Shown here: positions 17,694-35,160 of the stretch, piece after piece
Layout: each line of letters begins with the position of its first letter
How positions within the stretch are numbered: position 1 is the stretch's first letter
Assembly (NCBI GenBank): GCA_021324815.1
Contig: JAJPIJ010000012.1
Coordinates: 1-35,160, forward strand
Direction: 5' to 3'
Source: Gammaproteobacteria bacterium
GTDB lineage: Bacteria; Pseudomonadota; Gammaproteobacteria; JAJPIJ01
DNA: 35,160 nt
Notes under the pieces: generated by a model
Told to the model about the DNA's origin: nothing
What the model saw: only the letters and a program-made list of their open reading frames with translations
Database searches by the model: none
Made by a program: the position numbers and the translations under genes

Positions 17694-19298
17694 ATGCCGC
17701 CGCCGTGTCAACCGGTGCTCCTGATCGTCCTCGACGGCTGGGGTTACTCCGAGAACACGCAGTACAACGCCATCCACAGCGCCCAGAAGCCGGTGTGGGA
17801 TCGCCTGTGGGCGGGATGTCCCCACATGTTGATCAGCGCCTCCGGCCTCGACGTCGGACTGCCGGAACATCAGATGGGCAACTCCGAGGTCGGCCATATG
17901 CACCTCGGCGCCGGGCGGACCATCGACCAGGAATTCACCCGCATCACCGCCATCCGCGAGGGTGAATTCCATCGCAACCCGGTCCTCACACGCGCCTTTG
18001 ACGCCGCGGCCGCGGAGGAGCGCGCCGTGCACCTGCTGGGACTCTTGTCGCCCGGCGGCGTGCATAGCCACGAGGACCACGTGCTGGCGCTGATGGAGAT
18101 GGCCGCCGGGCGCGGCGTGAGTCGCATCTACGTCCACGCCTTCCTCGACGGCCGCGACACCCCGCCGAAGAGCGCGGGCCTGTCGCTGCAAAAGGTCATG
18201 CTCAAGTTCAACGAGCTCCGGCGCTGCGGTCGCATCGCCAGCCTCATCGGCCGTTACTATGCCATGGACCGCAATCACCGCTGGTCGCGCACCCAGGCCG
18301 CCTATGATCTCGTCGCCGACGGGCGCGGTTTGTACACCGCCAACGATCCGCTGATCGCGCTGGACATGGCCTACGCCCGCGGCGAGACCGACGAGTTCGT
18401 GAAGGCCACGGTCATCGTTCCCCGCGGCGGACAGCCGGTGCGGGTCGAGGACGGCGATACCGTGGTCTTCGCCAATTTTCGAGCCGATCGCGCGCGGCAG
18501 CTGAGCGAGGCCTTCCTGGAAAGGCGCTTCGACGGTTTCACCCGCGCGCGCACGCCGCGACCGGGCGCGTTCGTCACCATGACGCGCTACAGCGACGACT
18601 ACGACGCGCCGGTGGCCTTCCCGCCCCAGCACATCCCCAACACCTTCGGCGAATACATCGCCGGCCTGGGCTTGAAGCAGCTGCGCATCGCCGAGACCGA
18701 GAAGTACGCGCACGTGACCTTCTTTTTCAACGGCGGCGAGGAGCGCGTGTTCCCGGGCGAGGACCGCATCCTGGTGCCCTCGCCGCACGTGCCGACCTAC
18801 GATCAGCAGCCGGCCATGAGCGCCGCGGAGGTCACCGACCGGCTGGTGGAGGCCATCCGCGGCAAAAAATACGCCGCCATCATCTGCAACTTCGCCAACG
18901 CCGACATGGTCGGCCACACCGGCAACTTCGAGGCGGCGGTCAGGGCCATCGAGACGCTGGACCTGTGCCTGGGCCGCATCGAAACCGCGGCCCGCGAGGC
19001 CGGCATGGAAATGCTCATCACCGCCGATCACGGCAACGCGGAGAAAATGCGCGAGGTCTCGACCAAGCACGTCATCGGCCAGACGCACACGGCGCACACC
19101 AGCAACAAGGTGCCGTTGATCTACGTGGGGCGGCCGGCGGCGATGGCGCCCGGCGGCACGCTGGCCGACGTGGCGCCCACCCTGCTCACCATCATGGGCC
19201 TGCCCATCCCGAGGGAGATGACCGGAAAACCGCTGCTCAGGCTGCCGGCGGCGGCCGCGGCGCCGGCGGACAGCGCGGGCCGCCGCGCCGCGTCCTGA
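17694..19298 (+). CDS. gpmI: 2,3-bisphosphoglycerate-independent phosphoglycerate mutase
   Basis: GpmI interconverts 3- and 2-phosphoglycerate in glycolysis and gluconeogenesis using two manganese ions. The 534-residue protein has the alkaline-phosphatase-like metal site (VLDGWGYSE with Asp14), the phosphoryl-acceptor Ser64 in [10 protein letters not shown], the [11 protein letters not shown] and FLDGRDTPP substrate segments, [12 protein letters not shown], and the second metal cluster [13 protein letters not shown] and [10 protein letters not shown]. The C-terminal tail after about 510 is Ala-rich and not conserved. It is divergent from the rhodanese gene and converges with the TMTC-like gene across a 23-base gap that holds no clear terminator. 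Confidence 0.97.
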
Positions 19299-19321
19299 AC
19301 CATCCTTTCCTCAAGCGCCCG

Positions 19322-21256
19322 TCAATTTTTCTGATTGTCGATTGCCGGCGCCGCCGCGCGCAGCAACTGATCAACCATGACCGCCCTTTGATATCTGCCC
19401 AGCGGATCGAGCCTGCCCACGATTGCAAGTTCCGCATACGCCAGCCGCCTGTCGCCCCGCTGCGCGTACCAGTTGGCGAGCCCGACATGGAACATGGGGT
19501 CGTCCTGATCCATCGCAATGGCCTTTTGCAGATATTCGCCGGCCGCAATTTGTCGGCCGCGATCGCGCTCCCAAGCGGCGCGCAGATTGTAGATCTCCGC
19601 CATCATGCGCCGGCTGTTCCCGGGGTTGTGCACCCAGGCGTCAAAAAAACCCTCCATTTCGCTGAAGGGGATTTTGCAAAAACTGCGCTGGCAATACACC
19701 AAATCCGCCAGGTAGGCCAGATTGGCGTGGGCCGCCGGGCCTGCAGCCAGCCGCCGCCTGATGGCGGAGAACCAGCCGGGATCGGGCGGGAGTCCGGTTT
19801 CATAAGCTATCATGACCAGCGTGTGATAGGGCAGGATGTCGATTTGATCGAGTTCGCCGGCGCGTTGCAGCGTATCCTGCGCCAGCGCCAGTGTCGAAGC
19901 GTCATGCGTTTTCAAGTAGATACGGTAATATAACCAGCCGAGGGCATGCATCGAGCGCGCCGATTGCGGGTGGTTGATCGCCTCCTCCACGGTGTGTCCC
20001 GCGTACTCCCCGAAGTCCCACGCCCGCGCGAAGGTGTTGTTGAACATCAAAACAAGGTAGAGAACCGGCGGCGCAAGACGCCACCAGGCGGCGGTGGCGC
20101 GCGCCATCATGACCAGCGCCCACGTGACCGCCAGGATGGGCCCGAAGTCGGGCAGATAATTGCGGTGCTCGTGGGCGATTTCCAGCGGCAGTATCGTTGA
20201 TTCCAGCGCATGGCCGGCGAGAAACCACCCTATTGCCAGCGCCAGCGGCGGCATCCGCCGCAGTGATCGCACGGCCAGCGCCGGCAGCACAATCAGGCCG
20301 AGGATGGAAAACAAGGTGGTCGGCGGCGCCAACAAGCCGTGCGACGGCGCGATATCGTCGTGGTACAGGCCCATGCGCGCGATGTCCGGATAGACAATCA
20401 GCGAGAGATAAAACCACAGCACGCGCGCCTCGGTCATGAGCCGTTCCACCACCGTGAAGCCGCGGTCCTGGTAACCTTCAACGAACCAGCCCGGCCCGGA
20501 CAACAGGTACAGTCCCGCGGCCAGCGCCGGCAGCACGAGGGCCAGGGCGAAAAATACTTGCAGGAATTTCCGATCCGCCATGCGGGCCGCGCGCCAGCGA
20601 AACGCCGTCACTTCCATCACCAGCAGGTATGCCGGCATCAGCACGGCGATTTCCTTGGTCGCAAGTGCAAGCAGGCCGAAGCCGCACGATCCCCAGGCGA
20701 TGAGCGCGCGCCCCCTGCCCCCCGTTAGCATCCGCTGCCTGCCCGCCGCGTAACAGAGCATCCCCGCCAGCATGAACAAACTGGCCAGGCTGGTCATGCG
20801 CTGCACCACGTACAGCACGCTGGTGAGATTCAGCGGATGGAGCAGCCAGATCGCCGCCGCGATCGCCGCCAGTGGCGCGCACAGGGCGGATGCGATGTAC
20901 ATCTCCGCGAGCAGGATGCGCCCCAGCAGAAACAGCAGGACGCCGTTTGCAAGATGGATGACCAGGTTGACGAACTTGAAGTAAAAGGGATCGAGACCGA
21001 AGAAATAATGGTTCAGGGCGAAACTGAGGTACGCCAGCGGCCGCTGGCCGGCGTTGCCGACCAGCGCGGCGTCCCGAAAAGCCCGCAGACTGGCCTGCGA
21101 CACGTGCAGGGCGTCGACCTTCACGATATTGGGATAGTCGTCGAACTCGAATTCACCGTGCAGGCCGGGCCAGTACGCCGCGGCGGTCAGCAGCAGCGCC
21201 ACCGCCATCACTGCTGCGGGAGAAGGCCTTCTGATCCTTGGCATCCAAATCATCAC
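19322..21256 (-). CDS. TMTC-like polytopic membrane protein with C-terminal helical repeats (candidate pilin glycosyltransferase)
   Basis: A protein of about 644 residues. The N-terminal part has about ten hydrophobic helices and a GT-C-like first loop with acidic residues (GEFEFDDYPNI), followed by NAGQRPLAYLSFALN, LLHPLNLTSVLYVVQRM, LALATKEIAVL and EHRNYLPDF; these patterns are shared with bacterial TMTC/O-mannosyltransferase-like proteins. The C-terminal 230 residues are soluble helical hairpins resembling TPRs. GTG 21256 is preferred because GAGGG lies 8 bases upstream; ATG 21253, or upstream ATG 21304 and GTG 21316, are possible. It follows mshP on the same strand as the last gene of the MSHA operon, so I infer that it glycosylates pilins or otherwise serves the pilus. 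No activity is proven for the family here. Confidence 0.8.
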   Translation of the reverse strand: MMIWMPRIRRPSPAAVMAVALLLTAAAYWPGLHGEFEFDDYPNIVKVDALHVSQASLRAFRDAALVGNAGQRPLAYLSFALNHYFFGLDPFYFKFVNLVIHLANGVLLFLLGRILLAEMYIASALCAPLAAIAAAIWLLHPLNLTSVLYVVQRMTSLASLFMLAGMLCYAAGRQRMLTGGRGRALIAWGSCGFGLLALATKEIAVLMPAYLLVMEVTAFRWRAARMADRKFLQVFFALALVLPALAAGLYLLSGPGWFVEGYQDRGFTVVERLMTEARVLWFYLSLIVYPDIARMGLYHDDIAPSHGLLAPPTTLFSILGLIVLPALAVRSLRRMPPLALAIGWFLAGHALESTILPLEIAHEHRNYLPDFGPILAVTWALVMMARATAAWWRLAPPVLYLVLMFNNTFARAWDFGEYAGHTVEEAINHPQSARSMHALGWLYYRIYLKTHDASTLALAQDTLQRAGELDQIDILPYHTLVMIAYETGLPPDPGWFSAIRRRLAAGPAAHANLAYLADLVYCQRSFCKIPFSEMEGFFDAWVHNPGNSRRMMAEIYNLRAAWERDRGRQIAAGEYLQKAIAMDQDDPMFHVGLANWYAQRGDRRLAYAELAIVGRLDPLGRYQRAVMVDQLLRAAAPAIDNQKN

Positions 21257-21319
21257 GCTTGCATCCCTCGATGAATCAGTCCGCCGGTGTTCGCGGGCGG
21301 CCATGACGCGGTCCACGGT

Positions 21320-21730
21320 TCAACCATTGGTGACGCTCGCCTGCACGCTGCGGGTGATGAGATCGGCGGTGGCCGTTGATCCGGTGGTGGCCGTGGCAGA
21401 CAGGTTGTACACGTTGTAGGTTTTCGCGCCCTCCGTCACCGACGTTGCGGCGCAGGTCACCGTGATGGTGAAGTTGTTCGGCGCGCCGGAGGCCGGCGTG
21501 ATGGTGGCGCTGGCGGCGCAACTGCCGGCCACCAAGGCCTGGCGCGCGGCCCACTCGATGCCGCTTTGCGCCGCGGCGTAGGCGCGCGCGCCCTGCAGCG
21601 AATACGTCGCCGCCGCCTGCTCCGTGCCGGTGATGGTCACCATGAACGCCGCCACCGCCGCCAGCACGGTGATGATGAACACCGTCCCGACCAGTGAAAA
21701 GCCCCTCTGGAATCGATGGATGCCGTTCAT
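21320..21730 (-). CDS. mshP: MSHA minor pilin-like protein MshP
   Basis: A 136-residue pilin-like protein. The prepilin leader ends at Gly in QRG|FSLVGTVFIITVLAAVA, followed by a hydrophobic N-terminal helix. Position 5 of the mature protein is Gly instead of the usual Glu, as is typical for the PilX/MshP class. The rest is a small domain with two Cys (CAAS and VTCAA), which may form a disulfide. Its ATG overlaps the mshO stop (ATGA at 21727-21730), and the TMTC-like gene follows. It is expected to be a low-abundance tip or initiation component of the pilus. Confidence 0.85.
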   Translation of the reverse strand: MNGIHRFQRGFSLVGTVFIITVLAAVAAFMVTITGTEQAAATYSLQGARAYAAAQSGIEWAARQALVAGSCAASATITPASGAPNNFTITVTCAATSVTEGAKTYNVYNLSATATTGSTATADLITRSVQASVTNG

Positions 21731-22680
21731 GGCACGTTGAGGACGTGCGCCTGATCGAGGAGCGTCACCTGCATCGCGCCGCCGCTGGTGGCGCTGGGAT
21801 CCCCGACCGTGAGGGAGATGGTCACGAGGCCGGCGCGCGTCGCGGTGCCCGCCGTGTAATCGAACCGGCACGCCGTCACCTGGTTCGCCAGCAGCTTAGC
21901 GGCGCCTCCCGGTGGCATGGCGTGAGTTGCGGCAATGGGATAGGCGTCGTAGCGATTGATTTGATTCGTGGAAACGTCGCAAACAAAACTGACCGGCGTG
22001 TCGACAATGTCGAAGCGCTGGCTGGGCGAACCGGTGGGAAACTTGGTCTTGGGCGCAATGTTGAACGACACCGAGGTCGGCGCGGTCACCGGCGTGGCCG
22101 CCGTCACCACGGCGATATCGTCCCCGGCGTAGGCATTGGCGCCACTCTGACCCGTGTTATAGATGACCAAACAGTTGGCGGTGAGTGCATTCGATAAACA
22201 ATTCGCTTGGGTGGCGCCTGCACCGCCGGGCGTGATGGTGCCGAAGCTGAAAGTCGTCGGCGGCCCCAACACCTCGAAGCAATCGGCGGCGACGTTGAAA
22301 TTAAGCGTATCTCCGTCGCCACTGGCGCAGACATCATTGTTGGTGCTGTCGGCTTGGGCACGATAACGGCCGCCGCTGACGGTACGCAGGATTTCGATCG
22401 CGCACGGTGTGCCGGCACTCGCGGTGCAGGTGGAAAGAAACGTGACGCCGTTGGACGTCAACCGGACACTGTTGGGCGCCGCCAGCCGGATTTCGCTGGT
22501 CATGCGGTGCAGCGCGCTCTCGGCGACGTCGACCAGTTGCGCGCGCCGCGTGGAGTCCTCGAAGCCCGTGATGGGTTGCGAAATGTTGCGCCAGGCCACC
22601 GCCGCGAGAATGCCGCCGATGACGATGACCGTCACCATCTCGACGAGCGTAAAGCCGGCAGAAAACCGCGCGCGCCCCAT
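21727..22680 (-). CDS. mshO: MSHA minor pilin MshO
   Basis: A 317-residue prepilin of the PilW/MshO type. The leader MGRARFSAG is cleaved before FTLVEMVTVIVIGGILAAVAW, with Glu at mature position 5. The large C-terminal domain is rich in Thr, Ala and Asn, with several Cys that probably pair in the periplasm. It starts 3 bases after the mshD stop and overlaps mshP by four bases. Together with MshC, D and P it should form the pilus tip complex that primes assembly. Confidence 0.9.
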   Translation of the reverse strand: MGRARFSAGFTLVEMVTVIVIGGILAAVAWRNISQPITGFEDSTRRAQLVDVAESALHRMTSEIRLAAPNSVRLTSNGVTFLSTCTASAGTPCAIEILRTVSGGRYRAQADSTNNDVCASGDGDTLNFNVAADCFEVLGPPTTFSFGTITPGGAGATQANCLSNALTANCLVIYNTGQSGANAYAGDDIAVVTAATPVTAPTSVSFNIAPKTKFPTGSPSQRFDIVDTPVSFVCDVSTNQINRYDAYPIAATHAMPPGGAAKLLANQVTACRFDYTAGTATRAGLVTISLTVGDPSATSGGAMQVTLLDQAHVLNVP

Positions 22681-22683
22681 GGG

Positions 22684-23211
22684 TCAGTAATTCGTCCTGT
22701 AGCCGGTCACGGTGCGGGCGCCGGTGAGCGCGGGATGAGTCACCCTGACGTCCACGCGCACCACCTGGCCGGCGTTGGAATTCAAACCGTTGAAGGTCAC
22801 GCCCGTGCTGGTCGTGGTGATTTGCACGGTGTAACCGCCCAGTCCCGCCAGCGCCGCGCCGGTCTGATCGCGGGCGCCGGCGTCGGTGAAATTGTAATCG
22901 CAAACGTCGTCATAAGTGGCGCGCGTCTCGGCCGGCCCGATGGCGCCGGCACAGGTGCCGCAGGCCGAGGTCACGCAGCTGGTGGGACAGGTCGCCGCCC
23001 CCGCCCAGTCCGGATCGCAGAAGGGCTTGAGCAGGGCCTCCTCCAGATAGGACTGGGCGATGGCGGCGGCCTGTTCCTCGATCATGGGATCGGCGCTGCG
23101 GCTGGTGGCGCTGTTCACCGCCAGCATCACGCCGCCCACGGCGATGATCAGGATCAGGATCGAACTGACCAGTTCGATGAGGGTCAGGCCACTTTGCGAA
23201 CGGCGCTTCAA
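22684..23211 (-). CDS. mshD: MSHA minor pilin MshD
   Basis: A 175-residue prepilin. The leader MKRRSQSG is followed by LTLIELVSSILILIIAVGG with Glu at +5. The segment ADPMIEEQAAAIAQSYLEE and then a Cys-rich stretch (FCDPDW, CPTSC, ACGTC, VCDYNF) are the MshD pattern; the six Cys probably form disulfides. The start is a TTG at 23211 that overlaps the mshC stop (TTGA), a rare start codon that fits translational coupling. It is the third gene of the mshA-C-D-O-P pilin block. Confidence 0.9.
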   Translation of the reverse strand: MKRRSQSGLTLIELVSSILILIIAVGGVMLAVNSATSRSADPMIEEQAAAIAQSYLEEALLKPFCDPDWAGAATCPTSCVTSACGTCAGAIGPAETRATYDDVCDYNFTDAGARDQTGAALAGLGGYTVQITTTSTGVTFNGLNSNAGQVVRVDVRVTHPALTGARTVTGYRTNY

Positions 23212-23702
23212 TGGACGAACCCGGTTTCCTGTTCCACGGTGATGGTGCGGCCGCCGACGGTCACGGTGGCGGACGCGGTGGTGCGGCCCATCTCGTCAAA
23301 GGTGATCGTGGCGGCGGAGACCGCCACTCCGGAAGGCGCGGTGTTGCTGAAGTTGCTGCCGTCCGGCCGCACCACTGCTCCGCTGGTGTTGCCCGGCGGA
23401 CAACCGGCGCGGGTGAGGGCATAGCCCGCGGGCGGGCCGGTGCCGGCGGTAAAGGTGGCGGTGACCGAGGTGCAGCGGGAGGCGATGGCGAATTTCTGCG
23501 CGTAGCGCAGCGCCGCCAGCGCGTCTTCATAGAAACCGCGCCTGGTGAAATCAGTGGTGGTGAAGAACCGCGGTCCGGCAAATGCCGCCACGATGCCTAC
23601 AATCACCAGGACGGTCACCAACTCCGTGAGGGTGTAGCCATTGACACGACCCCCTGGCGGGGCCTTGCCGCTCCACGAAATCGCGACGCGGGTCTGCTGC
23701 AT
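23208..23702 (-). CDS. mshC: MSHA minor pilin MshC
   Basis: A GspH-like prepilin of 164 residues from the ATG at 23702. The processing site is RVNG|YTLTELVTVLVIVGIVAAFAG with Glu at +5. The C-terminal domain contains RRGFYEDALAALRYAQKFAIASRC, the usual GspH/FimT segment, and two Cys (SRC and GCPPG). The start is uncertain: the ATG stands only one base behind GGAGG, while GTG at 23726 would give a longer leader of 30 residues. It lies 81 bases after mshA and its stop overlaps mshD. It is a minor component of the pilus. Confidence 0.88.
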   Translation of the reverse strand: MQQTRVAISWSGKAPPGGRVNGYTLTELVTVLVIVGIVAAFAGPRFFTTTDFTRRGFYEDALAALRYAQKFAIASRCTSVTATFTAGTGPPAGYALTRAGCPPGNTSGAVVRPDGSNFSNTAPSGVAVSAATITFDEMGRTTASATVTVGGRTITVEQETGFVH

Positions 23703-23783
23703 GCCTCCTTCAGTTTCCTGCCACACGCACCCTTGACCCCCCGTCGGGTGCCGGGCGGCCGCGACGTGCTTCTAAAAAACCCG

Positions 23784-24221
23784 CTAGCAGCCTCCTGTCG
23801 AGGGAGTGATGGTCGGAGGATTATTCGCAGCGGCGGGCGCTGTATAGGTCACCCTGCAAGTGGCTGTCGTGGGTGCACTGCTGATGTAATAGTATCTGCT
23901 GCCGGCAGCAGTAAAACCAGCGGTGCTTTGAAGAGTCTTGTCAATACCCGCCGCCGCGGCGGTGGGGTAGCCAAAGGTCATGGCCACGGAGTTGCCTTCC
24001 ATGGTGACCGCCGCGCCCGTGCTCTTGCCCTGGGCGAGTTGGGCGGCATGCGCCAATGCCGCGCCGGCCCTCACACCCCCTGCGATACCGTTCACGGCCG
24101 AAACCCGCGCCTGTGTCTCCAGCCCCGCGAACCGCGGCAGGGCGAAGGCCGCCAGGATGCCCAGAATGACGATGACCGTGACCAATTCAATCAAGGTGAA
24201 ACCTTGCTGCACTGTTTTCAT
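23784..24221 (-). CDS. mshA: MSHA major pilin MshA
   Basis: A 145-residue type IVa-like pilin. The short leader MKTVQQG is cleaved by the prepilin peptidase before Phe, giving FTLIELVTVIVILGILAAFALPRF, with Glu5. The C-terminal disulfide loop is framed by TTATCRVTYTAP and STGGC at the very end, as in Vibrio and Shewanella MshA. The ATG has the strongest ribosome binding site of the operon, AGGAG at 24229-24233 with seven bases of spacing, which fits its role as the most abundant subunit; an extended -10 element just upstream may give extra transcription. It is the only full-size major pilin here; a separate mshB is not seen. Confidence 0.95.
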   Translation of the reverse strand: MKTVQQGFTLIELVTVIVILGILAAFALPRFAGLETQARVSAVNGIAGGVRAGAALAHAAQLAQGKSTGAAVTMEGNSVAMTFGYPTAAAAGIDKTLQSTAGFTAAGSRYYYISSAPTTATCRVTYTAPAAANNPPTITPSTGGC

Positions 24222-24244
24222 GATTACTCTCCTTTCTTTTTTAA

Positions 24245-24253
24245 ATGCTAGCA
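24245..24253 (-). promoter_or_regulatory. Candidate internal promoter for mshA
   Basis: On the minus strand TGCTAGCAT fits an extended -10 (TG-n-TAGCAT) 24 bases before the mshA ATG, in an AT-rich gap of 93 bases between mshF and mshA. There is no good -35. No -24/-12 sigma54 element with the right spacing is visible. Weak call. Confidence 0.3.
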
Positions 24254-24314
24254 CAAATTTATGCGATTGTTTCCAGAATCATGGTTGCGCACTGCGGAAA
24301 AACCCCCCATCCCC

Positions 24315-24854
24315 TCACTTTCCGGTCCATTCATAGTGATCCAGTTTTTGCACAGACAAGGCCCATGCCCTGTCCACACCCGCATCATAACGGCCGTTGC
24401 TGTTGACATCCTCGTAATCCAGGCTCAAACGGTACCGCAAGCGCCCCGGCCCCGGCAGGTCGCTCCTGAAATACGCATCATTCATCACCCGGTAGATGAT
24501 CCAGCCGTCGCGCCTGTCGAAATACCAGTGGCCCGGCGCCATCTGCTCCGGCCGGTCGCCGTCGATCTCCCCGGCATAGTTGGTCGGCACCGCCGACATC
24601 AGCGCAAAGGGATTGCGCCCGTCGTAATCCACCAGCCGCGCGCCTTTGCCGGCGATCGCCAGTTCCGCCTGGAAAATAAGCAACTGGGTGCGGAGCTGGT
24701 TGATCATCAAATCGACGGCGGCGTGATCCATTTCGGCCTCCAGCCGTTGCACCCGCTGGTGGAAGACCGCCGTCAATATCCCCATCACGATCACAACCAT
24801 GGCCGTTTCGAAACGGCCGAGGTTCCGGCGCAGGATCGCGGTTTCAACCGCCAT
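24315..24854 (-). CDS. mshF: MSHA biogenesis protein MshF
   Basis: A 179-residue protein with a single hydrophobic segment near the N-terminus (FETAMVVIVMGILTAVF, about 14-31), then a helical segment HAAVDLMINQLRTQLLIFQAELA and a soluble domain with YRLSLDYEDVNSNGRYDAG. It lacks the prepilin Gly-Phe-Glu signature, so it is a membrane-anchored assembly protein rather than a pilin. Position between mshG and mshA and the general layout match MshF. The ATG overlaps the mshG stop by one base (TGATG). Confidence 0.82.
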   Translation of the reverse strand: MAVETAILRRNLGRFETAMVVIVMGILTAVFHQRVQRLEAEMDHAAVDLMINQLRTQLLIFQAELAIAGKGARLVDYDGRNPFALMSAVPTNYAGEIDGDRPEQMAPGHWYFDRRDGWIIYRVMNDAYFRSDLPGPGRLRYRLSLDYEDVNSNGRYDAGVDRAWALSVQKLDHYEWTGK

Positions 24855-26071
24855 CAGTGCCTGAGCTTCACGCTCGCCAGGTCCCACATCGGCAGGAAGA
24901 TGCCGAGCGCCAGGATCAGCACCATGCCGCCGATGCACACGATCAGGACGGGCTCGATGGTCTGGCTCAGGTTCTTGATGTCGTAATCCACCTCGCGTTC
25001 ATAAAAACCGGCCACTTCCTCCATCAATTGATCGATCGCACCGGTCTCCTCGCCCACCGTCAGCATCTGGATGACCAGTGCCGAGAAAATGCCGGTGCCC
25101 GCCGCCGTGTGGCTGAGCGTGTCGCCGCGTTCCACGCCGGTGCGCATTCCCAGGATGTGACTCCCGATATAGGTGTTGTCCACCGCGCGGGCCACGACGT
25201 TGAGCGCCTGGGTGAGGGGCACACCCGACTTCAGCGCCATGGACAGGGCGCGCGCGAACCGACCGAGGGCGGCGCGCTTCAGGATGTCGCCCACCAACGG
25301 CAGCCGCAGCTTGAAACGGTCCCACGCCAGACGGCCCGGCTCCGTGGCCACCCACGAACGCGCCACGACCGCGATCAGCAGGACGCCGAGGATCATGGCC
25401 GGCCAGTAGTGGACGAACAGGTTGGACGTGCCGATCAGGATGCGCGTGGGCAGGGGCAGTTCCACGTTCACGCGTGCGAACAAGGCGGCGAATTGCGGGA
25501 TCACCACCACGTTGAGGATGCCCATGGCGACGGCGATGGCGATGAGCACCATGGCGGGATATCGCAGCGCCGCCTTGACCCGTTCGCGGGTGTCCTTTTC
25601 CAGATCCAGATACTGCGCCAGCTGCCACAGGGCGTCATCGAGCCGGCCCGTCTTCTCGCCGACGCGCACCACGGCGACAAACAGCGTGCTGAACACCCTG
25701 GGATGCCGCGCCAGGCAGGCGGACAGTTCGCGACCCGATTCAATCTGGGTTTGAACATCCTTGAGCACCTCCACCAGCCCCGCGTTGCGGGTGGATCGCA
25801 CCAGGCCGGTCATGGCCTGGATGATGGGCACGCCGGCCTTCAGCAGCGCGTAGAGCTGGCGGGCGAACAGAATGAGATCCGTCAGCGTGGGTTGCTCCTT
25901 GAAAATCCGCCAGTCCACCGCCCCCGCCCGCGCCGCGGCTTCGGTGATCTCCAGCGGCGTGACGCCGCCGTCGATCAACTGGGCCGCGACGGCGCCGGTG
26001 TTCGCCGCCTCGACCCGGCCCTCGATGAGTTCGCCCATGCGGTTGCGGCCGCGGTAACGGTAGCTAGGCAT
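24854..26071 (-). CDS. mshG: MSHA inner-membrane platform protein MshG (GspF family)
   Basis: A 405-residue polytopic platform protein. It has two tandem T2SSF domains (about 65-190 and 270-390) and hydrophobic helices at about 170-195, 220-235 and 375-398. Signatures are FARQLYALLKAGVPIIQAM and FARALSMALKSGVPLTQAL at the start of each repeat and GTGIFSALVIQMLTVGEETGAIDQLM near the end. It transmits the ATPase motion of MshE to pilin polymerisation. Its ATG lies 13 bases after the mshE stop. Confidence 0.96.
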   Translation of the reverse strand: MPSYRYRGRNRMGELIEGRVEAANTGAVAAQLIDGGVTPLEITEAAARAGAVDWRIFKEQPTLTDLILFARQLYALLKAGVPIIQAMTGLVRSTRNAGLVEVLKDVQTQIESGRELSACLARHPRVFSTLFVAVVRVGEKTGRLDDALWQLAQYLDLEKDTRERVKAALRYPAMVLIAIAVAMGILNVVVIPQFAALFARVNVELPLPTRILIGTSNLFVHYWPAMILGVLLIAVVARSWVATEPGRLAWDRFKLRLPLVGDILKRAALGRFARALSMALKSGVPLTQALNVVARAVDNTYIGSHILGMRTGVERGDTLSHTAAGTGIFSALVIQMLTVGEETGAIDQLMEEVAGFYEREVDYDIKNLSQTIEPVLIVCIGGMVLILALGIFLPMWDLASVKLRH

Positions 26072-26084
26072 TGGAATTCACCGG

Positions 26085-27839
26085 CTACGACACGGCCGAC
26101 GCGGGCGCGGCGGCCACGGGGGCGGCGGCGGGTTCCAGGGCCTCGGTGTCCGCCGAGACGCGTATGACTTCATCAATCGTGGTGATGCCGGCAAGGGCGT
26201 AATCCAGGGCCATCTGCTCCAGCGGCCGGTATCCGGCGGTGCGCTTGGCGTGCACGGCGAAGCTGGCGCTGTCGCCGCGGGAAAGTATCATGCTCGTCTG
26301 CTCGGTCAGCTCCAGCAGCTCATAGACGCCGATGCGCCCGGAATAGCCGGTGTTGTTGCAGTGGTGGCAGCCCACGCCGCGCATGAATTTCGCCTGCAGG
26401 TGCTGGTTGCCGGTCTTGGCGTGCAACCACGCCTGCGCCTCGGGGGAAGGCGGCGCGGGTTGCTGGCAGCTCGTGCATATGCGCCGCACCAGCCGCTGCG
26501 CCAGGATGGCGTTCAGGGCCGAGACCAGCAGATAGCCGGCGATGCCCATGTCGAGCAGGCGGTTGACGGTGCTCACGGCGTCATTGGTGTGCAGGGTGGA
26601 CAGCACCAGGTGGCCGGTCATGGCCGCGCGCAGGCCGATCTGCGCGGTCTCCTCATCGCGCATCTCGCCGATGAGGATGATGTCGGGATCCTGGCGCAGG
26701 GCGGAACGCAGCACCCGCGCGAAGGTCAGGCCGATGTCGGTGTGAACCTGCACCTGGTTGATGCGCGGCAGGCGGTATTCGACGGGGTCTTCGACGGTGA
26801 TGATCTTATTTTCCGGCGAGTTCAGCAGTTGCAGCGCGGCATAGAGCGTGGTGGTCTTGCCGCTGCCGGTGGGCCCGGTGACCAGCACGATGCCGCGGGG
26901 CCGCCTGATGATGCGCTCGAAGCGCCGGCGCATCTCGTCCGGCATGCCCAGTTGATCGAGGTTCAACACCCCCTGGCTCTGATCCAGCAGACGCATGACC
27001 ACCGACTCGCCATACTGCACCGGCATGGTGGAGATGCGGATGTCAATGATGCGTCCCCTGACCTTGATGGAGAAGCGCCCGTCCTGGGGCAGGCGTTTCT
27101 CGGAAATATCGAGGCCCGCCATCAGTTTCAGGCGCAGCACCAGCGAGGGGGCGATGCGCTTTTCGTTGAGGACATGCTCCTGCAACACGCCGTCGACACG
27201 CTGGCGTATGCGCAGCACGGTCTCGTCCGGCTCGATGTGAATGTCGGAGGCCTTGATCTGGAGGGCGTCCTCAAACAGGGTTTGCAGCAGCTTGACCACC
27301 GGCGCGTCGGCGACGTCGGTGGCCACCAGCTCCTGTGTGGTGTCGCCCCTGCCCAATTCCTGCCTTAATTCCTGGGCGAAACCGGTGATCTGCTCGGTGC
27401 GCCGGTAAACCGTGTCGAGCGTCTTGAGCAGATCCGCCTCCCGCACCACGGCCAGATTGACCGGCTTGCCGAGCAGCAGGGTCAGTTCATCGTAGGCAAA
27501 AATGTTGGTGGGATCGGACATGCCGACGAGGACCCCCTTGGGCTCGACCTTCAGCGCCACGGCCCGCAAACGCCGGGCGTGGATCTCGGGGATCATCCTG
27601 GCCACCTCGGGATCCAGCTTGAAGTGCGCCAGATCGACGAACGGGAACGGATCGCTGATTTGCTTGGATAAAAACTGCACCAGCTGGTCCTCGTTGATGT
27701 AGCCCTTGTCGATGAGGATGCGGCCGAGCTTGTGGCCGCTCTTCTTCTGCTCGGCCAGCGCCGCCTCCAGTTGCTGGGTGGAGATGATCCTGTTCTGGAC
27801 CAGCAGTTCGCCGAGGCGGATTTTCCGTCGCTGTACCAT
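26085..27839 (-). CDS. mshE: MSHA pilus extension ATPase MshE (c-di-GMP-binding type)
   Basis: A 584-residue GspE/PilB-type ATPase. The N-terminus carries the MshEN motif pair: RLGELLVQN...Q at 8-31, a five-residue linker, and KLGRILIDKG...Q at 37-60, the spacing known to bind cyclic di-GMP. The ATPase core has Walker A GPTGSGKT (322-329), the Asp box ITVEDPVEY (347-355) and Walker B with GEMRDEETAQ (391-400), then a zinc-binding tetracysteine (C455/C458 and C491/C494). All catalytic elements look intact. The C-terminus is Ala-rich. The ATG lies one base after the mshN stop. Confidence 0.97.
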   Translation of the reverse strand: MVQRRKIRLGELLVQNRIISTQQLEAALAEQKKSGHKLGRILIDKGYINEDQLVQFLSKQISDPFPFVDLAHFKLDPEVARMIPEIHARRLRAVALKVEPKGVLVGMSDPTNIFAYDELTLLLGKPVNLAVVREADLLKTLDTVYRRTEQITGFAQELRQELGRGDTTQELVATDVADAPVVKLLQTLFEDALQIKASDIHIEPDETVLRIRQRVDGVLQEHVLNEKRIAPSLVLRLKLMAGLDISEKRLPQDGRFSIKVRGRIIDIRISTMPVQYGESVVMRLLDQSQGVLNLDQLGMPDEMRRRFERIIRRPRGIVLVTGPTGSGKTTTLYAALQLLNSPENKIITVEDPVEYRLPRINQVQVHTDIGLTFARVLRSALRQDPDIILIGEMRDEETAQIGLRAAMTGHLVLSTLHTNDAVSTVNRLLDMGIAGYLLVSALNAILAQRLVRRICTSCQQPAPPSPEAQAWLHAKTGNQHLQAKFMRGVGCHHCNNTGYSGRIGVYELLELTEQTSMILSRGDSASFAVHAKRTAGYRPLEQMALDYALAGITTIDEVIRVSADTEALEPAAAPVAAAPASAVS

Positions 27840-35067: not shown

Positions 35068-35160
35068 TCACCACGGCTCGCGGATGTAGATCTGGCGTCC
35101 GGAGCCGCCGTAGGTCCCGAAACTGACGCGCGCCAGCGGCGGATCGTTGTCGTTCACGCC
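35068..35160 (-). CDS. C-terminal end of an MshQ/DUF6701-like protein (cut by window edge)
   Basis: The last 30 codons and stop of a gene that enters from the right edge. The visible end includes LARVSFGTYGGSGRQIYIRE and ends in PW. The pattern of ARxSFGxYxGxxRxIYxRE followed by an aromatic residue near the stop is typical of MshQ and related DUF6701 proteins, large surface adhesin-like proteins of MSHA clusters. The gene is on the same strand as the MSHA operon but upstream of mshI, rather than after mshP as in Vibrio and Shewanella. Identification rests on a short fragment only. Confidence 0.65.
   Translation of the reverse strand, partial: GVNDNDPPLARVSFGTYGGSGRQIYIREPW

Follow-up and report, generated by a model that had tools for sequence, protein, structure and literature searches.

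The last gene of the MSHA pilus operon in the analysed stretch of 35,160 nucleotides (contig JAJPIJ010000012.1 of a gammaproteobacterium, hereafter the window) encodes a membrane protein of 643 aa (21253–19322, minus strand) whose probable role is to glycosylate pilus proteins on the outer side of the inner membrane. The explanation that we favour, and hold to be fairly likely, is that of an inner-membrane pilin glycosyltransferase that depends on polyprenyl-phosphate sugars, acts on PilA across its family and has been recruited to MSHA in this genome, with a GT2 glycosyltransferase working in trans. The role in pilin glycosylation is well supported by the genomic context and by the predicted fold, and MSHA is a plausible specific target.

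The MSHA-type operon is complete in the window, where it reaches from mshI (34802) to mshP (21320), and all msh genes share the minus strand with the ORF of the putative glycosyltransferase. It includes the gene for the assembly ATPase MshE (26085–27839), which served as the query of the MSHA survey, mshG (24854–26071; T2SSF), an mshF-like gene (24315–24938) that is named by its position and has no Pfam match, the gene for the mshA-like major prepilin (23784–24254), and the genes for the mshC-like (23208–23726), mshD-like (22684–23211) and mshO-like (21727–22680) minor prepilins. The mshP-like gene (21320–21730), which codes for a pilin-related protein, was assigned by its operon position and by blast matches from msh operons elsewhere; its product also gives a weak NCBIfam match to GspK (E 1.7e-4), far under the cut-off. 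The maximal ORF of the glycosyltransferase gene extends from 21316 to 19322 with a GTG start (664 aa), and translation probably begins at the ATG in position 21253, or at an equally good GTG at 21256 with AGGG 8 nt upstream, which gives a protein of 643–644 aa. The sequence-only reading, whose range of 19322–21730 spans mshP as well as the glycosyltransferase gene, had placed the latter about 60 bases past mshP on the same strand, and the distance from the mshP stop at 21320 was measured as 66 nt to the ATG (or 3 nt with the first GTG as start codon). It had also seen no terminator in between, with which the terminator scan agrees: the 66-nt gap is without terminator-like site, and the region 19150–24400 holds three such sites, below the mean of 4.3 for shuffled sequences. 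Since a plus-strand gene (17694–19298), which we take to be gpmI-like, converges on the glycosyltransferase gene, the latter closes the operon, as had been proposed. The sister genome (G001) carries the same gene at the same place, with 73% amino acid identity to the window copy. The dN/dS between these two copies is 0.17, an approximate value (simple Nei-Gojobori, dS about 1) similar to those of mshO and gpmI, and by this sequence comparison the window gene is under purifying selection. At the window end, upstream of mshI, positions 35077–35154 (minus strand) encode the C-terminus of an MshQ-like protein (DUF6701), and two DUF6701 proteins occupy the matching place in G001; MshQ seems to have moved from the end to the start of the operon in the genus of the window.

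An AlphaFold2 model of the protein, calculated with 77 sequences, reached a pLDDT of 93.6 and a pTM of 0.93. For its membrane domain (residues 1–425; 19979–21253), VIA-align returned AglB (Z 18.0), STT3 (17.8), Pmt4 (17.1), ALG12 (16.9) and Pmt1-Pmt2 (16.7), and further ArnT (15.9), PglB (15.1), AftD (14.7) and EmbB (13.9). The GT-C superpositions have Z scores of 15–18 across 311–349 residues, and the chance level for helical models lies at Z of about 13–14; for the predicted structure, the GT-C matches are above chance and form one coherent fold class. The superposition on AglB, STT3, Pmt4 and ArnT is in line with the GT-C-like membrane protein that had been claimed from the sequence, and for which a structure prediction compared with ArnT had been named as a check. 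Among the 50 matches listed by Foldseek there was no GT-C entry, all being TPR or other proteins, and a profile of the membrane half retrieved no solved GT-C enzyme from the PDB sequences, only unrelated chains (E 1.3–2.1). No Pfam or NCBIfam model names the membrane part of the window protein or of the 77 members; Pfam PMT (PF02366) does not match the window protein and matches 1 of the 77 members. A Wzy_C/WaaL domain is absent from the window protein at E ≤ 0.1, and the sole Wzy_C protein of the genome sits elsewhere, on contig C28. The TPR-like hairpins that had been noticed at the C-terminus are clear in the model at about residues 426–639 (19337–19978), where the domain superposes on PilF/PilW (VIA-align Z 11.9) and also matches designed TPR structures. 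Pfam TPR models match this part weakly, under the cut-off, and TPR_19 is matched by 49 of the 77 family members.

The family alignment was built from 80 loci without L082, L092, L099 and L114, which were in the wrong frame, truncated or short. In this alignment R277, E362, R364, N365 and Y366 are identical in all 77 members, and D38, D39, R71, K93, N96, H100, Q151, R152, K200 and E201 are identical in 76, with one gap each. The acidic motif FDDYPN that had been described for the first loop is indeed present and contains D38 and D39, which are gapped in the one remaining member. The HDD motif (298–300) has H298 in 74, D299 in 73 and D300 in 71 of the 77 members and is absent from the copy of G063. 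As described in a passage of a TMTC paper that also mentions prokaryotic homologues in general terms, human TMTCs carry DD in loop 1, SHKSYRP, KE(T/Q)xxT, DW and ERxxY as contacts to metal, sugar and phosphate (PMC7801869). The DD (38–39), RP (71–72), KE (200–201) and E..Y elements of the window protein match the TMTC motifs M1, M2 (RP part), M4 and M7 in the same order. Of M2 (SHKSYRP), RP is kept and SHKSY is not (family consensus GPLxRP); the counterpart of M7 is E362-H-R-N-Y366, with the arginine one place later than in ERxxY; and SHK as well as the W of DW have no counterpart in the window family. A search for DUF1736 (PF08409) at E ≤ 10 stayed empty for five genomes (G000, G001, G043, G063 and G298), and the domain is not among the matches listed (25 of 30 Pfam families) for the 77 members. 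We therefore term the protein TMTC-like, not TMTC as Pfam defines it by DUF1736. The alignment supports the view that the conserved residues occupy the positions of the catalytic and phosphate-binding residues of TMTC and ArnT.

A single-protein search of genome contigs found no relative, an alignment-based search of the same kind of data found at least 562, and a plasmid search yielded no relative of the Acinetobacter copy. The family occurs in 109 of the 370 sampled genomes of the class, with copy numbers that are lower bounds because at most three candidates were scored per genome. Neighbourhoods were compared for the best 88 of the 109 matching genomes, plus G011, with the 21 weaker ones left out. 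Among the resulting 102 neighbourhoods are 83 loci with 2.5 kb of upstream sequence; 67 of them have a prepilin gene in that stretch and in the same orientation, and the controls gave 4/87 for a prepilin downstream on the same strand and 1/83 for one upstream on the opposite strand. A GT2 gene lies downstream in 60 of 87 loci. Among the 80 loci nearest to the window protein, which include Dechloromonas, Acinetobacter, Marinobacter, Dokdonella, Lysobacter, Dyella and Cycloclasticus and were counted without the MSHA copies of G001 and G063 and the locus L009 (all part of the 102-neighbourhood count), the corresponding values were 59/65 for a prepilin upstream, 43/66 for GT2 downstream and 0/66 for a prepilin downstream. 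The family usually adjoins pilus-subunit genes, the usual layout being pilS-pilR-pilA-GTC-GT2, and tandem copies occur in 20 of the 102 loci. Dechloromonas denitrificans (L095) and Marinobacter mobilis (L128) are examples with pilA-GTC-GT2. The genome survey that the sequence-only reading had set as its test favours the pilin link (67/83 upstream against 4/87 downstream).

No prepilin gene was seen upstream in 16 of the 83 loci with sufficient room, eight of which have GT2 in the stretch examined. In L063, L143, L153, L176, L200 and L203 a TMTC-like gene stands with GT2 and without prepilin upstream; these may be independent modules whose target is a different one or lies at a distance. Tandem arrays at L046, L049 and L159 contain broken or fragmented family copies (split frames, stops), which suggests that tandem copies turn over rapidly. 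At two loci that belong to one family, f104 (L172 in G212, L181 in G296), a pilB-like gene and a TMTC-like gene lie together with the genes for a prepilin and for a long protein of no recognised type, and this group is a candidate for a different pilus-like cluster. Cycloclasticus (L107: 376–9893) has two mshE-like ATPase genes, presumably PilT/PilU-like by their start, minor prepilins and a prepilin-like protein of 654 aa ahead of a TMTC-like gene.

MSHA-type mshE was found in 118 of the 370 genomes, and family and mshE occur together in 48, which is above expectation (odds ratio 2.1, Fisher p 0.0015, relatedness ignored). Linkage to MSHA is rare, with 5 of the 118 mshE genomes, and in four of the five the gene is inside the operon. 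These four represent three lineages with different placements: the gene follows mshP in the window's genome and G001, follows mshQ in G043, and in G063 is flanked by mshA and mshC, which share its strand. The order mshP-mshQ-gene in G043 was deduced from two contigs that overlap by exactly 127 bp: one spans mshI to mshQ, and the other has the 3' part of mshQ at its end, next to the gene. In G298 the gene lies past mshP on the opposite strand (convergent), outside the operon, with a dihydroorotate-dehydrogenase-like gene in between. A quick tree put the MSHA-linked copies in four places, which needs 4 changes (3 without G298), and suggests independent recruitment of these copies; since a single clade was not rejected by the AU test (p 0.156), this is not demonstrated. 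Overall, the mshP-adjacent placement is rare, yet MSHA placement as such recurs. The association that the survey was to examine is strong for prepilin genes; with mshP itself it was seen only in the genus of the window.

The genome of the window carries two more family copies (35–39% identical) at its pilA locus (L031: 7385–12749, on contig C5 of G000), where the order is pilS, pilR, pilA, the two copies in tandem and a DPMS/ArnC-like GT2 gene. The closest solved structures to this GT2 protein, which matches Pfam GT2, are ArnC, dolichol monophosphate mannose synthase (DPMS) and GtrB. The genome has a single full-length copy of this GT2, the other two matches being partial, and no GT2 gene lies beside the MSHA copy in the window. 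In the ArnC/ArnT and DPMS/PMT pairs, the GT2 enzyme makes a polyprenyl-linked sugar and the GT-C enzyme transfers the sugar. By analogy, GT2 would load a sugar onto polyprenyl phosphate at the cytoplasmic side, a putative flippase would turn the polyprenyl-phosphate sugar over, and the GT-C enzyme would move the single sugar to a Ser/Thr hydroxyl of a not yet assembled pilin, which the inner membrane still holds. The TPR domain is predicted to lie in the periplasm and would there keep hold of the pilin or of the assembly apparatus. In this scheme the catalysis, the sugar, the type of linkage, the topology and the target are predictions. Across the class, the family would act with PilA, for which the neighbouring DPMS/ArnC-like GT2 would make the carrier-linked sugar. 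In the window's genome the third copy would have been recruited to the MSHA operon, where MshA or the minor pilins of MSHA are its most likely targets, and the donor would come in trans from the one full-length GT2, which is encoded at the pilA locus.

MshA is the proposed main acceptor. Its mature C-terminus in the window ends in ...NNPPTITPSTGGC, which is possibly the acceptor region; MshA of G001 ends differently. Richness in Ser and Thr, which had been taken to point to the target, was rejected as a sign of modification: the Ser/Thr content of MshA is 0.225 in four operons with the gene and 0.207 in 16 without it (p=0.25; one further operon yielded no MshA), so that there is no difference. 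In V. cholerae, the location of pglL upstream of msh has led to the suggestion, without proof, that MSHA is a possible target of glycosylation (PMC6901666).

It might be that the protein glycosylates PilA only, that a chance insertion put its gene at the end of the MSHA operon and that the MSHA pilins are unmodified. This would fit the pilA neighbourhood as the family norm, the rarity of MSHA placement and the MSHA copy without adjacent GT2; however, the genome already carries two copies at pilA, the gene lies inside the msh operon and on its strand in three lineages, once directly between mshA and mshC, and the window copy is under purifying selection. We consider this explanation unlikely. 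A GT-C enzyme could also act on a non-pilin surface molecule, such as LPS, exopolysaccharide or another exported protein, given that the GT-C fold serves lipid and glycan acceptors as well (ArnT, AftD) and that some copies (e.g., L079 and L063) lie in or near polysaccharide genes without prepilin upstream. Such a target is quite improbable in view of a prepilin linkage of 80–90% in two samples that is specific for orientation (upstream, same strand). That the protein is, now or always, no enzyme at all and works via its TPR domain as a TfpY-like accessory of pilus assembly strikes us as highly improbable, as the charged residues at GT-C active-site positions are nearly invariant and GT2 is linked in 60 of 87 loci, even if the TPR domain resembles PilF/PilW and TfpY is described, in part of one paper, as a non-enzymatic pilA-linked accessory (PMC11841053).

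The recruited pilin glycosyltransferase could be one member of a widespread bacterial system of protein O-glycosylation, in which a DPMS/ArnC-like donor synthase and one to several TMTC-like GT-C/TPR transferases serve a pilin. Such a system would be the periplasmic counterpart of O-mannosylation in the ER by DPM synthase and TMTC, and MSHA pili would have recruited it from type IVa pili on several occasions; we put this forward tentatively and with some doubt. If true, the family, which lies mostly by pilA and bears no curated name, would be a common second route of pilin glycosylation, with a likely monosaccharide-phosphate donor and built-in recognition of the pilin. Pilus phage resistance, adhesion and surface properties of many bacteria from the environment would then be read in another light, and TMTC chemistry would gain simple models in bacteria. 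Glycosylation of the MSHA pilus in particular has become a directly testable question. Within the open-licence literature, which leaves subscription papers and preprints outside and makes this a weak result, no paper was found that ties TMTC-like proteins to pilins.

Compared with known systems, the window protein shares with ArnT/ArnC and PMT/DPMS the combination of a GT-C enzyme with a GT2 polyisoprenyl-phosphate-sugar synthase (Z 15.9 to ArnT and 16.7–17.1 to Pmt), and it differs from them in its predicted pilin acceptor, its TPR tail and the missing Pfam PMT match. Kus is said to have described in 2008 that TfpW of Pseudomonas paraeruginosa Pa5196/PA7 is a GT-C pilin arabinosyltransferase with D-Araf as the sugar. 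Set beside TfpW by description only, the window protein is alike in its GT-C class, in the family's gene position beside pilA and in the proposed action on a cognate pilin, and unlike it with regard to the sugar D-Araf and the MSHA link, which as far as seen TfpW does not have; the window family may include TfpW or may stand apart from it. TfpW, which in the passages concerned transfers arabinofuranose to PilA (PMC11841053, PMC12369383), is the one GT-C precedent described, and not TfpO and PglL as had been assumed. The latter were rejected as GT-C enzymes: excerpts from a 2025 review count TfpO, TfpM, PglS and PglL, the usual O-linking pilin transferases, among the O-antigen-ligase kind and state that all known O-OTases carry O-antigen-ligase/WaaL domains (PMC12645811). 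As the same excerpts present them, TfpO/PilO, TfpM, PglS and PglL resemble the system proposed here in their frequent linkage to pilin genes and in periplasmic O-glycosylation; they are unlike it in their WaaL/Wzy_C fold, which the window protein lacks, and in their en bloc transfer. From the eukaryotic TMTC1–4, the window protein is set apart by the missing DUF1736 and HK of SHKSYRP and by pilins instead of cadherins as predicted acceptors. It shares with them, as far as the part of the TMTC paper concerned describes, the GT-C membrane part with DD in loop 1, RP, KE and E..R/Y in loop 5 that is followed by TPR, and a donor from a GT2-type DPM synthase (PMC7801869).
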